Source: Thalassolituus oleivorans MIL-1 (GTDB lineage: Bacteria > Pseudomonadota > Gammaproteobacteria > Pseudomonadales > Oceanobacteraceae). From it: 64,000 nt of DNA. A model generated the notes under the pieces. That model saw nothing but the letters and a program-made list of their open reading frames with translations, was not told the origin of the DNA and ran no database searches. The stretch lies in contig NC_020888.1 of assembly GCF_000355675.1 (NCBI RefSeq), positions 1 to 64,000 on the forward strand. Direction: 5' to 3'. The position numbers and the translations under genes were made by a program. Positions 42,677-45,717 of the stretch are shown piece by piece (within the stretch, counting starts at the first letter, position 1; each line of letters begins with the position of its first letter).

Positions 42677-44407
42677 TTAGTTATTTTGATACAGTAGTAT
42701 AAATACTGCGATCAGTAATATGATCGAGACCGATTGCCAAAATACGACTGGGTTTCTCTCCAGTAAGGGCGGTTTTGTTTTAGTTAAAAAGGTTTTACTG
42801 GGATGGCGTAAATCGTAAACAAACTCAGATAAATCCTCATAGCGCTTGTAAGGATTGACGTATACGGCCTTGCGAATAGCATCGTCAATCCATGCAGGAA
42901 TTTCGCAGTCATCGCTAATCAGTGATTGATACTTTAGTTTGTTTTGTGCTGTTTTACTTCTAGCTTTAGCGATATTCGAACCATAAGGTAACTTGCCTGT
43001 TAGCATCTGATAGGTGATCACACCTAATGAAAACTGATCGGAATAGATGCTGCCGTTCTCACCTAAAAAATATTCTGGTGCGCTGTATTGTGCAGTGCCT
43101 AAGATCAATGGCTGATCGATAGCGCTTTCCATCTCTTCTAAGCCAGCGACTAAGGTGGCACCAAAGTCGATGATCTTCACCGTACCGCTTTGGTCAATCA
43201 TGATGTTATCGGGCTTTAAATCTTGGTGCAGCATTTCTAAACGATGGAATGCTCGCAGTCCTTTAGCTATTTGCTCAACAATGTCGCGCACGTCATCTAG
43301 GTTCGGCTTTGGGTTGTCACGCATCCATTGGGCAAGATTCTTACCTTCAATAAATTCCATTGCTACATATAAAAACTGTCGTTGGCGGGCATTGGCTATA
43401 GGCTTTAGTACATGAGCACTGTCTATTCGCTTAGCAATCCATTCTTCCATCAAAAAACGTTCTAAATAGGCGGGGTCGTTACGTAAATCAATTGAAGGAA
43501 TTTTAAGAATCACGCGTTGGTCAGATTCAATATCTTTAGCCAGAAATACATGACTGCGACTCGTAGAATGCAAACCACGAATAATTTCGTAGCCATCGAA
43601 TTCCATGCGAGCATCCAGCTCTGGCGGGAAAGGTAAGTCGGTAATTTGTAGTTGAACCTCGTTGAGACCTTGATCAGGCAAGTCGTCGATGCGTAATATC
43701 TGAATCGTGAGGTTGTCATCACTCTTGTTGGCAAGAGCTTTATCGACAATTGTTTGAGCGGCTAAGTCTAAGTTGTCGCCACTCTGTTTTATGCTGGCAA
43801 TAATATCATTGGCACTGACGAATTCATGCACTCCGTCGGTAGCTAACATATAAATTTCGCCTTTGCTTACGGCAAAGGTTTGGTAGTCGATATCCAGTTG
43901 TTGATCAATGCCAAGCGCGCGACTTAAATAACTTTTGTCTTCCGATATCCACAGGCGATGATCGTTAGTGAGTTGCTCCATGGATGTATCATGCAAGCGG
44001 TAGACGCGCGTATCGCCAACATGAAAAACATGTGCTGTATTGGACTTGATTATTAAACAACTAAAAGTGCAGACGTAGCCCTTGTCTTTATCGTAACGAT
44101 ATTGACTTTGACGCGTTTGTGAGTGCAGCCATGAGTTTGTGGCGTATAAAACACGCTGTGCGGACTGCTTTACCGACCAAGTTTCGGAAGTACAGTAATA
44201 ATCACTTAAGAAACCATTAATAGCTGCCGCGCTTGCTATTTGGCTGACGGTGCTACTGCTAATGCCATCAGCAAGAGCGATGACAATGCCTTTAGAGCTA
44301 AGCTGGGGTTCTTGCGGAATAGCAACGCCATGAAAGTCTTGATTGAGATCTTTAATGCCCTTATCTGAGCATTGTCCAACGGTTACTTTCAGGCATCTTT
44401 CCATCAT
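42677..44407 (-). CDS. Fused PP2C phosphatase and Ser/Thr protein kinase
   Basis: This is a 576-residue bifunctional signalling protein. The PP2C domain (about 5-240) has KDLNQDF, ALADGISSS, FHVGDTRVYR, ATDGVHEFV and SDDNLTIQIL. The eukaryotic-type kinase domain (about 270-525) has an ATP lysine in VILKIPS, LHQDLKPDNIM, IDFGATLV, YSAPEYFLG and SDQFSLGVITYQMLTG, so its catalytic residues are present. A single membrane helix ends the protein (about 553-573). In other proteobacteria such fusions lie with nitrate/nitrite assimilation and FNT transporter genes. Here it follows the FNT gene but no reductase genes are near. Substrates are unknown. Confidence 0.9.
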   Translation of the reverse strand: MMERCLKVTVGQCSDKGIKDLNQDFHGVAIPQEPQLSSKGIVIALADGISSSTVSQIASAAAINGFLSDYYCTSETWSVKQSAQRVLYATNSWLHSQTRQSQYRYDKDKGYVCTFSCLIIKSNTAHVFHVGDTRVYRLHDTSMEQLTNDHRLWISEDKSYLSRALGIDQQLDIDYQTFAVSKGEIYMLATDGVHEFVSANDIIASIKQSGDNLDLAAQTIVDKALANKSDDNLTIQILRIDDLPDQGLNEVQLQITDLPFPPELDARMEFDGYEIIRGLHSTSRSHVFLAKDIESDQRVILKIPSIDLRNDPAYLERFLMEEWIAKRIDSAHVLKPIANARQRQFLYVAMEFIEGKNLAQWMRDNPKPNLDDVRDIVEQIAKGLRAFHRLEMLHQDLKPDNIMIDQSGTVKIIDFGATLVAGLEEMESAIDQPLILGTAQYSAPEYFLGENGSIYSDQFSLGVITYQMLTGKLPYGSNIAKARSKTAQNKLKYQSLISDDCEIPAWIDDAIRKAVYVNPYKRYEDLSEFVYDLRHPSKTFLTKTKPPLLERNPVVFWQSVSIILLIAVFILLYQNN

Positions 44408-44418
44408 TATTTCCCTAA

Positions 44419-44454
44419 GAAAAAAGCCCCAGTAATAACTTACTGAGGCTTTTA
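44419..44454 (-). terminator. Intrinsic terminator between the FNT gene and the kinase/phosphatase gene
   Basis: On the minus strand AGCCTCAGTAA-GTTA-TTACTGGGGCT (one G-T pair) is followed by TTTTTT. It lies 38 bases after the FNT stop, just before the PP2C-kinase start, so the kinase needs read-through or its own promoter. Confidence 0.85.
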
Positions 44455-44491: not shown

Positions 44492-45301
44492 TTAAGCATT
44501 ACGCTTTGGCTTAGTCAGTACGTGAGTAGTGTATAGAGTTAGGCCAGTGAACGCCAAACCACCGACAAGGTTACCGATAGCGGTTGGGATTTCGTTCCAG
44601 ATGAAATAATCAGCGATAGAGAAGTCGCCACCCATAATGATGCCAGAAGGGAACAAGAACATGTTTACTACTGAGTGTTCAAAACCCATAAAGAAGAACA
44701 ACATAATTGGCATCCACATGGCCAAAACTTTACCGCTTACTGAGGTGGAGATCATTGCGCCCACAACGCCCATTGATACCATCCAGTTGCATAGCATGCC
44801 GCGGATGAAAATAGTCAACCAACCGTCTACACCATGTTCGGCGTAACCTAAAGTACGCGCTTCACCAACAGAAGCGATCTTGGCACCCACAGCACCTGGA
44901 TCCGTGTTGAAGCCCATTGTAAAAACAAAAGCCATCATAAAGGCAACCGTTAAAGCACCGGCGAAGTTACCGAGAAAAACTAAGCCCCAGTTACGCAATA
45001 TGCCGCCGACGGTTACACCTGGACGTTTATCTAATAATGCTAATGGACACAAGACAAACACACCGGTTAATAAGTCGAAACCCATTAAGTACAGCATACA
45101 AAAACCGACAGGGAATAGAATTGCACCGATTAAAAACACACCCGTTTGGACCGCGACGGTTACCGCAAATGCCGCAGCCAATGCCAAAATCGCACCTGCC
45201 ATATAAGCACGAATTAATGTATCGCGCGTCGACATAAAGATTTTAGATTCGCCTGCATCCACCATCTTGGTGACGAACTCCGCTGGAGCTAAATAAGACA
45301 T
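44492..45301 (-). CDS. Formate/nitrite (FNT) family transporter
   Basis: The 269-residue pentameric-channel-type transporter has six predicted membrane helices and FNT family signatures: YMAGAILALAAAFAV in the first helix, FPVGFCMLYLMGFDLLTG, a NWGLVFLGNFAGAL segment near 104, ILCNW-like MLCNWMVSMGV near 169 and GFEHSVVNMFLFP near 205 with the central His. FNT channels carry formate, nitrite or related anions. The nitrogen-type control region upstream (NtrC site, sigma-54 promoter, ANTAR leader) makes nitrite the most likely substrate. A GAGGTGAG site precedes the ATG. Confidence 0.9.
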   Translation of the reverse strand: MSYLAPAEFVTKMVDAGESKIFMSTRDTLIRAYMAGAILALAAAFAVTVAVQTGVFLIGAILFPVGFCMLYLMGFDLLTGVFVLCPLALLDKRPGVTVGGILRNWGLVFLGNFAGALTVAFMMAFVFTMGFNTDPGAVGAKIASVGEARTLGYAEHGVDGWLTIFIRGMLCNWMVSMGVVGAMISTSVSGKVLAMWMPIMLFFFMGFEHSVVNMFLFPSGIIMGGDFSIADYFIWNEIPTAIGNLVGGLAFTGLTLYTTHVLTKPKRNA

Positions 45302-45362: not shown

Positions 45363-45416
45363 AAAAAAAACGGCGTCCTCCCACAAACAAAAATTGCTCG
45401 TGAGATGGACGCCGTT
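45363..45416 (-). terminator. Leader terminator (attenuator) upstream of the FNT gene
   Basis: On the minus strand AACGGCGTCC pairs with GGACGCCGTT across a 28-base loop and runs into eight T residues, 62 bases before the FNT ATG. The 5' arm is shared with the second ANTAR-type hairpin, so the two structures are mutually exclusive. This is the arrangement of an antitermination leader. Confidence 0.88.
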
Positions 45417-45421
45417 ATCCA
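45406..45421 (-). promoter_or_regulatory. ANTAR-target hairpin P2 (antiterminator)
   Basis: On the minus strand TGGAT-AACGGC-GTCCA forms a 5-bp stem (one T-G pair) with hexaloop AACGGC. A at loop position 1 and G at position 4 are the conserved ANTAR recognition bases. Forming it consumes the 5' arm of the terminator. Confidence 0.82.
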
Positions 45422-45439
45422 GAATTCTTTAAATTGTAA

Positions 45440-45455
45440 GAGCCGCCGTTGGCTC
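45440..45455 (-). promoter_or_regulatory. ANTAR-target hairpin P1
   Basis: On the minus strand GAGCC-AACGGC-GGCTC forms a perfect 5-bp stem with the same AACGGC hexaloop as P2, 18 bases upstream of it. Tandem hairpins of this type are bound by NasT/NasR-type ANTAR antiterminators. Confidence 0.82.
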
Positions 45456-45470
45456 ACTAGTTAACATCAC

Positions 45471-45486
45471 TGCATGAGCTATGCCA
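45471..45486 (-). promoter_or_regulatory. Sigma-54 (RpoN) promoter of the FNT gene
   Basis: On the minus strand TGGCATAGCTCATGCA matches the consensus TGGCACN5TTGCA at all but two positions, with GG and GC separated by exactly 10 bases. The predicted transcription start falls near 45460, just before hairpin P1. Confidence 0.75.
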
Positions 45487-45500
45487 TGTTTAATAATAAG

Positions 45501-45529
45501 AAAAATCCTGAGTTATTCTTCGGATTTTT
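45501..45529. other. Symmetric A/T hairpin upstream of the FNT promoter
   Basis: AAAAATCC (45501-45508) pairs with GGATTTTT (45522-45529) across a 13-base loop. It could be a weak terminator in either direction or a bend between the NtrC site and the promoter. No recognisable gene ends at it. Confidence 0.35.
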
Positions 45530-45569: not shown

Positions 45570-45586
45570 TGCACTTCTAAAGTGCA
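45570..45586. promoter_or_regulatory. NtrC-type enhancer site
   Basis: TGCAC-TTCTAAA-GTGCA is a 17-bp palindrome with the TGCAC-N7-GTGCA arms of the NtrC consensus. It lies about 110-126 bases upstream of the predicted sigma-54 start site, where enhancers for NtrC normally sit. The 482-base gap 45302-45783 is therefore mostly control region. Confidence 0.72.
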
Positions 45587-45692: not shown

Positions 45693-45717
45693 GAATAGTT
45701 GAAGATAACAACTATTC
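45693..45717. promoter_or_regulatory. Inverted repeat, candidate operator of the acyl-CoA operon
   Basis: GAATAGTTG-AAGATAA-CAACTATTC is a perfect 9-bp inverted repeat with a 7-base centre, ending 67 bases before the acyl-CoA dehydrogenase ATG. The spacing fits a dimeric repressor. The regulator is unknown. Confidence 0.45.

Follow-up and report, generated by a model that had tools for sequence, protein, structure and literature searches.

A conserved ANTAR-type dual-hairpin leader, probably opened by NasT, precedes a formate/nitrite transporter gene in Thalassolituus oleivorans

Here, we ask how the gene for a formate/nitrite transporter (FNT) is controlled in Thalassolituus oleivorans MIL-1. 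The gene (44492..45301, minus strand; 269 aa) lies in the first 64,000 nucleotides of contig NC_020888.1 (hereafter the window, i.e., the whole stretch that was analyzed), and its product is a member of Pfam family PF01226, matched over the cut-off (E 4.3e-64). A leader with two small hairpins and a terminator stands before it. Our best reading is an ANTAR antitermination leader of the ordinary sort, for which the reader protein has been exchanged between NasR and NasT. With a probability of roughly 0.8, we infer that the leader acts by ANTAR-type transcription antitermination in nitrite uptake, a reading in which NasT binding, read-through, promoter use, and the transported substrate are deduced. 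NasT probably opens the switch when nitrate is present.

Word matches and folding place hairpin P1 (GAGCC-AACGGC-GGCTC) at 45440..45455 and hairpin P2 (TGGAT-AACGGC-GTCCA) at 45406..45421, each present once and on the minus strand, with a linker of 18 nt between them (45422..45439, minus strand); both hairpins show covariation in relatives. As the first-pass annotation had proposed, AACGGC is the loop of P1 as well as of P2, with A1 and G4 in each, i.e., the two neighboring stem-loops with A1/G4 hexaloops that mark ANTAR dual-hairpin RNAs. On the same strand, folding reveals an intrinsic terminator ending in T8 (45363..45416; −33.6 kcal/mol, z −8.95). Its 5' arm is made of the P2 loop and the P2 3' arm, with A1 of the loop as its first base; therefore, P2 and the terminator are mutually exclusive, as in other ANTAR dual-hairpin leaders. 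The annotation had put this overlap 62 bases ahead of FNT, and folding bore it out: 61 bases separate the last T of the terminator (45363) from the start of the FNT ATG (45301), and the two coordinates differ by 62. A simple terminator scan of the window did not list 45363-45416, probably because of a bulge in the stem. In isolation, the P1 segment folds at −8.5 kcal/mol (z −2.49) and the P2 segment at −4.4 kcal/mol (z −1.22), and P2 by itself is therefore nothing unusual. The isolated terminator is far stabler than P2, and the leader segment folded whole adopts the terminator form; a large kinetic or protein effect would therefore be needed for P2 to prevail.

For comparison, FNT loci were drawn from 55 whole genomes, MIL-1 and its relatives, of which 34 have an FNT match, and from named genome contigs (the best 80 of 594). 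An exact-word scan of 110 FNT loci returned 19 with both hairpins, 9 with P2 only, and 82 with neither; it was too strict, and a covariance model, R1, was used in its place. R1 was built from 11 aligned FNT leaders of relatives that were picked by a stem rule, leaving out L023 with its 40-nt linker and holding out the leader of the window. In this alignment, 8/10 pairs have stem changes on both sides, while the loops are fixed, and sliding the 3' partner by 1-3 columns lowers the paired cells from 95.5%, a figure inflated by the stem-rule choice of seeds, to 26-51%; the compensatory changes of an ANTAR dual-hairpin RNA are thus present. R1 recovered the held-out leader of the window with 53.3 bits (E 7.3e-10 in the 3.92-Mb genome), and the next match listed had 18.2 bits, with 150 of 1378 first-look candidates scored. 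Among the relatives' loci L007-L035, R1 matched at FNT with E <1e-5 in 13/29, nine of which are seeds, and twice more at 0.022. In the best 80 of 594 named loci, it made 56 matches at E≤1: 37 shortly before FNT (2 seeds; 19 at E≤0.01), 17 before nirB, where some of the nirB frames were called too long, and 2 elsewhere. Rfam searches of the window at gathering thresholds gave no match, and when the genome was searched for further copies of the P2 region, the window site alone came up.

Two details of the hairpins deserve comment. The loop-closing pair is C-G in P1 and a U-G wobble in P2. The latter speaks against our reading, since NasR, which prefers two hexaloops with A1/G4, favored a C-G closing pair in SELEX (PMC7496416, in part); U-G at the top of P2 is the commonest pair among the seed leaders (8/11). 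The linker of 18 nt falls within the 10-25 nt of the 11 seeds and outside the 5-12 nt that occur naturally in the eut leaders of Enterococcus faecalis, in which 14 nt weakened induction (PMC3369931, in part). We regard this range as specific to E. faecalis and not family-defining because the published search model let the linker vary (same source).

Upstream of P1, we identified a candidate sigma54-type −24/−12 promoter, TGGCAT-AGCTC-ATGCA (45471..45486, minus strand), with one mismatch to TGGCAYN5TTGCW, which we take to be the sigma54 promoter consensus. The motif ends 15 nt before P1, and the transcript would start near 45460. A candidate enhancer, the NtrC-type palindrome TGCACTTTAGAAGTGCA (45570..45586), lies 114 nt upstream of P1 and has no mismatch to TGCACYNNNNNRGTGCA, presumably the consensus of NtrC-type sites; the genome encodes NtrC (family match over the cut-off). 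By chance, 0.52 sigma54-type motifs and, at ≤1 mismatch, 0.64 NtrC palindromes are expected per window. Neither motif is therefore beyond chance in the window alone, and it is the comparison across leaders that carries weight. A sigma54 motif with ≤1 mismatch occurs ≤60 nt before P1 in 44/50 relatives' leaders, a set that includes some near-copies and excludes the weak L022 and L030, versus 0.56% of control windows. Similarly, an NtrC-like site with ≤2 mismatches is present within 260 nt upstream of P1 in 32/51 leaders, the window's own included, versus 6.3% of controls. Two further inverted repeats were noticed in this region. One, AAAAATCC/GGATTTTT, encloses a loop of 13 bases and lies in the interval that separates the NtrC-type site from the sigma54-type promoter (45501-45529, minus strand); the other, the 25-base operator-like GAATAGTTGTTATCTTCAACTATTC (45693-45717), precedes the divergent gene for an acyl-CoA dehydrogenase.

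The first-pass annotation had called for nasS-nasT or nasR to be looked for elsewhere in the genome, and a lack of any ANTAR protein would have spoken against its reading; this is not the case. The genome, a single contig that is 99.98% complete, encodes exactly one ANTAR protein, NasT, with a receiver and an ANTAR domain. nasT is located at 1.56 Mb with an overlapping nasS, followed by nrtA; both partners of a NasS-NasT regulon are thus at hand. NasS is an NMT1-like binding protein that matched no NasS-specific family, and its name rests on genomic context. NasR, the NIT-ANTAR protein, is absent, and the sole NIT match in the genome belongs to a chemoreceptor that has HAMP and MCP domains but lacks an ANTAR domain. 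On searches with the ANTAR and NIT domains and a tblastn over 17 kb, we rejected a hidden NasR.

Across genomes, the leader goes together with ANTAR proteins. For the named genomes (the best 80 of 594), the comparison covered 50 of the 80, i.e., 37/37 with an FNT-adjacent leader and 13/43 without, and an ANTAR protein was found in 37/37 versus 6/13 (Fisher p 1.7e-5, kinship ignored). The 13 leaderless genomes are a non-random choice, in that the comparison passes over 17 genomes whose leader precedes nirB and 13 further ones; at least two of the latter (L094 and L115) have a nasR-like gene each, and p would be 0.013 if all 30 had an ANTAR protein. Among the 34 FNT-bearing relatives, one of which (G012) matches with an FNT fragment only, an ANTAR protein is present in 16/16 with the leader and 12/18 without (p 0.020, kinship ignored). 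By frame length alone, the 37 leader genomes among the best 80 of 594 comprise 21 with only a NasR-sized protein, 12 with only a NasT-sized one, 2 with both, and 2 unclear cases, G088 being put in the NasR-sized group from its gene neighborhood. The relatives with an FNT leader have a NasR-sized protein in 15/16, the MIL-1 genome being the sole NasT-only one, and R1 finds no match at FNT in seven NasT-only relatives whose FNT is complete (G013, G018, G022, G030, G037, G040, and G049); therefore, recognition by NasT is something that we infer.

From these data, we propose the following working model. Under nitrogen shortage, NtrC and sigma54, as the motifs suggest, would start transcription just ahead of P1. 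With nitrate and nitrite absent, NasS would hold NasT, the nascent RNA would fold into the terminator, and transcription would stop before FNT. With nitrate or nitrite present, NasT would be freed and bind the two A..G.. hexaloops, and bound NasT would keep P2 open against the terminator to allow transcription of FNT. Ramesh et al. (2012) named nitrate and nitrite transporters among the genes behind ANTAR sites (PMC3369931, in part). Against the model, in Bradyrhizobium diazoefficiens the cited part of PMC6759348 reports that most NasT-affected genes are without such a hairpin and that narK, at which hairpins are present, rose in the mutant.

Several other explanations of the leader were considered. 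It is very improbable that an ordinary terminator happens to follow two look-alike stem-loops. The window holds a single pair of A1/G4 hexaloops with stems ≥5, P1/P2, and such short pairs arise at 0.23 per shuffle on average in 100 dinucleotide shuffles of the window; however, none of the 100 gave a pair with identical loops or with an overlapping terminator, and conservation, covariation, and the score of the held-out leader also argue against chance. A terminator that serves an upstream gene was rejected because the neighbor is divergent. Somewhat less remote, although still quite unlikely, is that the hairpins are real and act in another way, either mainly as a constitutive attenuator or as a site at which NasT affects RNA stability or translation instead of the terminator. 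The terminator is very stable by itself, and Ramesh et al. noted ANTAR sites that have no terminator and lie near ribosome sites (PMC3369931, in part). Against this, P2 and the terminator share bases, their overlap is seen in 28/110 FNT loci even in the strict scan, leader and ANTAR proteins go together across genomes, and no minus-strand gene just upstream would need a terminator, the only frames that the ORF list has there being short ones within the divergent dehydrogenase gene.

The alternative that deserves the most attention, if an unlikely one, is that the leader was built for NasR, that NasR was lost, and that NasT does not read what was left; FNT would then be kept low or read-through would be constitutive. 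All eight of the same-genus genomes that were searched carry a NasR-sized protein and the MIL-1 genome does not; in G001, G003, and G005, nasR and a gene of the BI-1 family lie on one short stretch, and in MIL-1 the same stretch is conserved as far as the BI-1-family gene, around which a tblastn search of 17 kb with NasR found nothing convincing. The prevalence of NasR-sized proteins among the leader relatives and the seven NasT-only relatives without an R1 match point the same way. On the other side, the loops and the terminator are intact in the MIL-1 genome, its nrtA leader likewise has an AACGGC loop, 12/37 leader genomes of the wider gammaproteobacteria (best 80 of 594) have only a NasT-sized protein as judged by frame length, and the ANTAR domains of NasR and NasT align closely.

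How NasT may have come to serve this leader is suggested by the distribution of the two regulators. Each of the eight same-genus genomes has a single ANTAR match with a NasR-sized frame of 426-451 aa, and the leader is kept in all eight; NIT and ANTAR domains were checked in G003, G005, and two genomes from other genera, and G005 and G006 are 80-84% complete, which makes NasT absence weak there. MIL-1 shares the arrangement nasT-nasS-nrtABC beside ygiQ with G017 and G028, and G028 carries both regulators, nasR by FNT and nasT by nrt. These observations suggest that NasR and NasT can stand in for each other. The simplest story would be reciprocal loss; transfer of nasR or nasT may have occurred instead. 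In full, the one-component NIT-ANTAR protein NasR and the two-component NasS-NasT would be interchangeable readers of one leader class: an ancestor would have had both, as does G028, NasR would have been lost here and NasT in the genus mates, the RNA switches would have been kept, and the survivor would have taken over the targets of the other. We hold this tentatively, at a shade under even odds. The 12 leader genomes with only a NasT-sized protein (best 80 of 594; frame length) count for an exchange, and the 15/16 relatives with a NasR-sized protein and the seven NasT-only FNT relatives without an R1 match count against a general one.

FNT is followed by a gene for a PP2C phosphatase and Ser/Thr protein kinase, identified by ORF and family search (42677..44407, minus strand; 576 aa), after a gap of 84 nt that contains a second, strong terminator-like hairpin by folding (44420..44453, minus strand). 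The order FNT and then PP2C-Ser/Thr kinase on the same strand holds in 106/110 loci, MIL-1 included; the gap has a median of 66.5 nt, is ≤300 nt in 92/106, and is replaced by slight overlaps in several loci. A terminator-like hairpin is located in this gap in 29/106 loci, including the window, and here would probably stop a share of the transcripts before the phosphatase/kinase gene. In relatives, FNT may adjoin a nasR-like gene and precede nirB, or come after nirB with the leader before nirB. Among the best 80 of 594 named loci, 14 have a nasR-like gene (36-44% identity) on the upstream side of FNT in divergent orientation, and a further locus has one of 26% identity. In the FNT tree, the FNT proteins of MIL-1 and G005 belong to another, strongly supported clade than those of the 5 other genus members included, while in the kinase tree the seven genus members form one group (support 87/83) that also takes in G031; therefore, FNT alone may have been replaced behind a kept leader.

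We take nitrite to be the likely substrate of FNT; a role in formate or cyanate transport may apply instead, in line with cynS lying within the FNT-kinase group in several of the best 80 of 594 named loci. The cyanobacterial FNT protein NitM carries nitrite, and cyanate and formate were non-inhibitory (PMC4390861, in part). cynS is found inside or after the FNT-kinase pair in gammaproteobacteria, e.g., at L038, L043, L050, L081, and L109, which suggests a shared nitrite/cyanate nitrogen supply group.

By inspection, we assigned two further leaders with a terminator and a sigma54-like motif in the same genome, one before nrtA (1560534-1560622) and one before nasA (1547135-1547216). The nrtA leader has a mismatch in the P1 stem and scores 16.1 bits with R1; the nasA leader, with a P2 stem of four pairs and the loop ATTGGC, is unreported by R1. 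The genome-wide R1 search lists neither and is thus an incomplete count of leaders. The ATTGGC loop recurs at L186, L198, and L201 (3/29 relatives' loci scanned). NasT probably serves both leaders as well and, if the assignments are right, has at least three targets. The prediction that the lone FNT transporter gene, rather than a reductase operon, is under NasT-type antitermination is therefore upheld in its first half, with NasT present and the leader conserved, and is unsupported in its second, as nasA and nrtA, by inspection, have leaders too. FNT, moreover, has the phosphatase/kinase gene behind it, across a terminator.

Behind its leader, the nasA reductase gene forms a pair with cobA, and nasA identity within the genus is 72-75% (G001-G004 and G006-G008; G005 has a fragment only). 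NasA, a molybdopterin oxidoreductase, carries a BFD domain and scores under the NCBIfam nitrate reductase cut-offs, and NrtA is an NMT1-like binding protein named from its genomic place. Family searches support the names NirB, NarK, CobA, YgiQ, cyanase, BI-1 family protein, and NIT chemoreceptor, and those of NrtB, NrtC, and the porin come from sequence and place alone. Upstream of nirB (1547537-1547610, plus strand), a sigma54-type motif with no mismatch is followed by the hexaloop-like AACGGC and AATGGC, with short stems and no terminator visible by eye; possibly, this is an ANTAR site working in another manner. A paralogue of the phosphatase/kinase gene adjoins narK in the nas cluster (1552237-1553988, plus strand), bringing the genome to at least two.

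If our reading holds, the nitrate antitermination regulon of gammaproteobacteria gains what is probably a nitrite importer and, perhaps, the conserved phosphatase/kinase as well. The part worth an experiment is the exchange of the reader protein over a kept RNA element. Close species appear to read one RNA switch with two differently built sensors, a natural experiment that lets one test whether ANTAR domains recognize RNA generically and the sensor alone sets the input. Among the titles and abstracts listed in literature searches, none dealt with an ANTAR leader of an FNT-kinase pair or with NasR/NasT exchange.

Dual-hairpin ANTAR leaders are already known, as are antitermination by NasR and NasT and the control of a leader of this type by sigma54/NtrC (PMC3369931, PMC7496416, PMC3795266, and PMC12830290, each in part), and the FNT leader resembles four described systems to different degrees. 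In the Pseudomonas nirBD leader nalA, which is read by NasS-NasT, a sigma54/NtrC start, a leader terminator, NasT antitermination, and nitrate/nitrite control are combined as we propose here (PMC12830290, in part). A nalA-like placement, with R1 matching just before nirB and FNT and the kinase gene downstream, was seen in 17 of the best 80 of 594 named loci, nearly all from Pseudomonas/Stutzerimonas; in contrast, the MIL-1 leader precedes FNT and is far from nirB. The Klebsiella oxytoca nasF leader is alike in its two A1/G4 hexaloops, the mutual exclusion of P2 and the terminator, and the nitrate/nitrite signal (PMC7496416, in part), whereas here the reader would be NasT and not NasR, the gene is FNT and not nasF, and P2 is closed by U-G. 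In Paracoccus denitrificans, NasT of the NasS-NasT pair binds the nasA leader after nitrate, and expression requires a hairpin (PMC3795266 and PMC5424462, in part); there, the nitrite transporter gene nasH is inside the nas operon, whereas here FNT has a leader of its own. Finally, the eut leaders of E. faecalis, read by EutV, share the dual-hairpin motif and the overlapping terminator (PMC3369931, in part) and differ from the FNT leader in signal, genes, and linker (5-12 nt there, 18 here).
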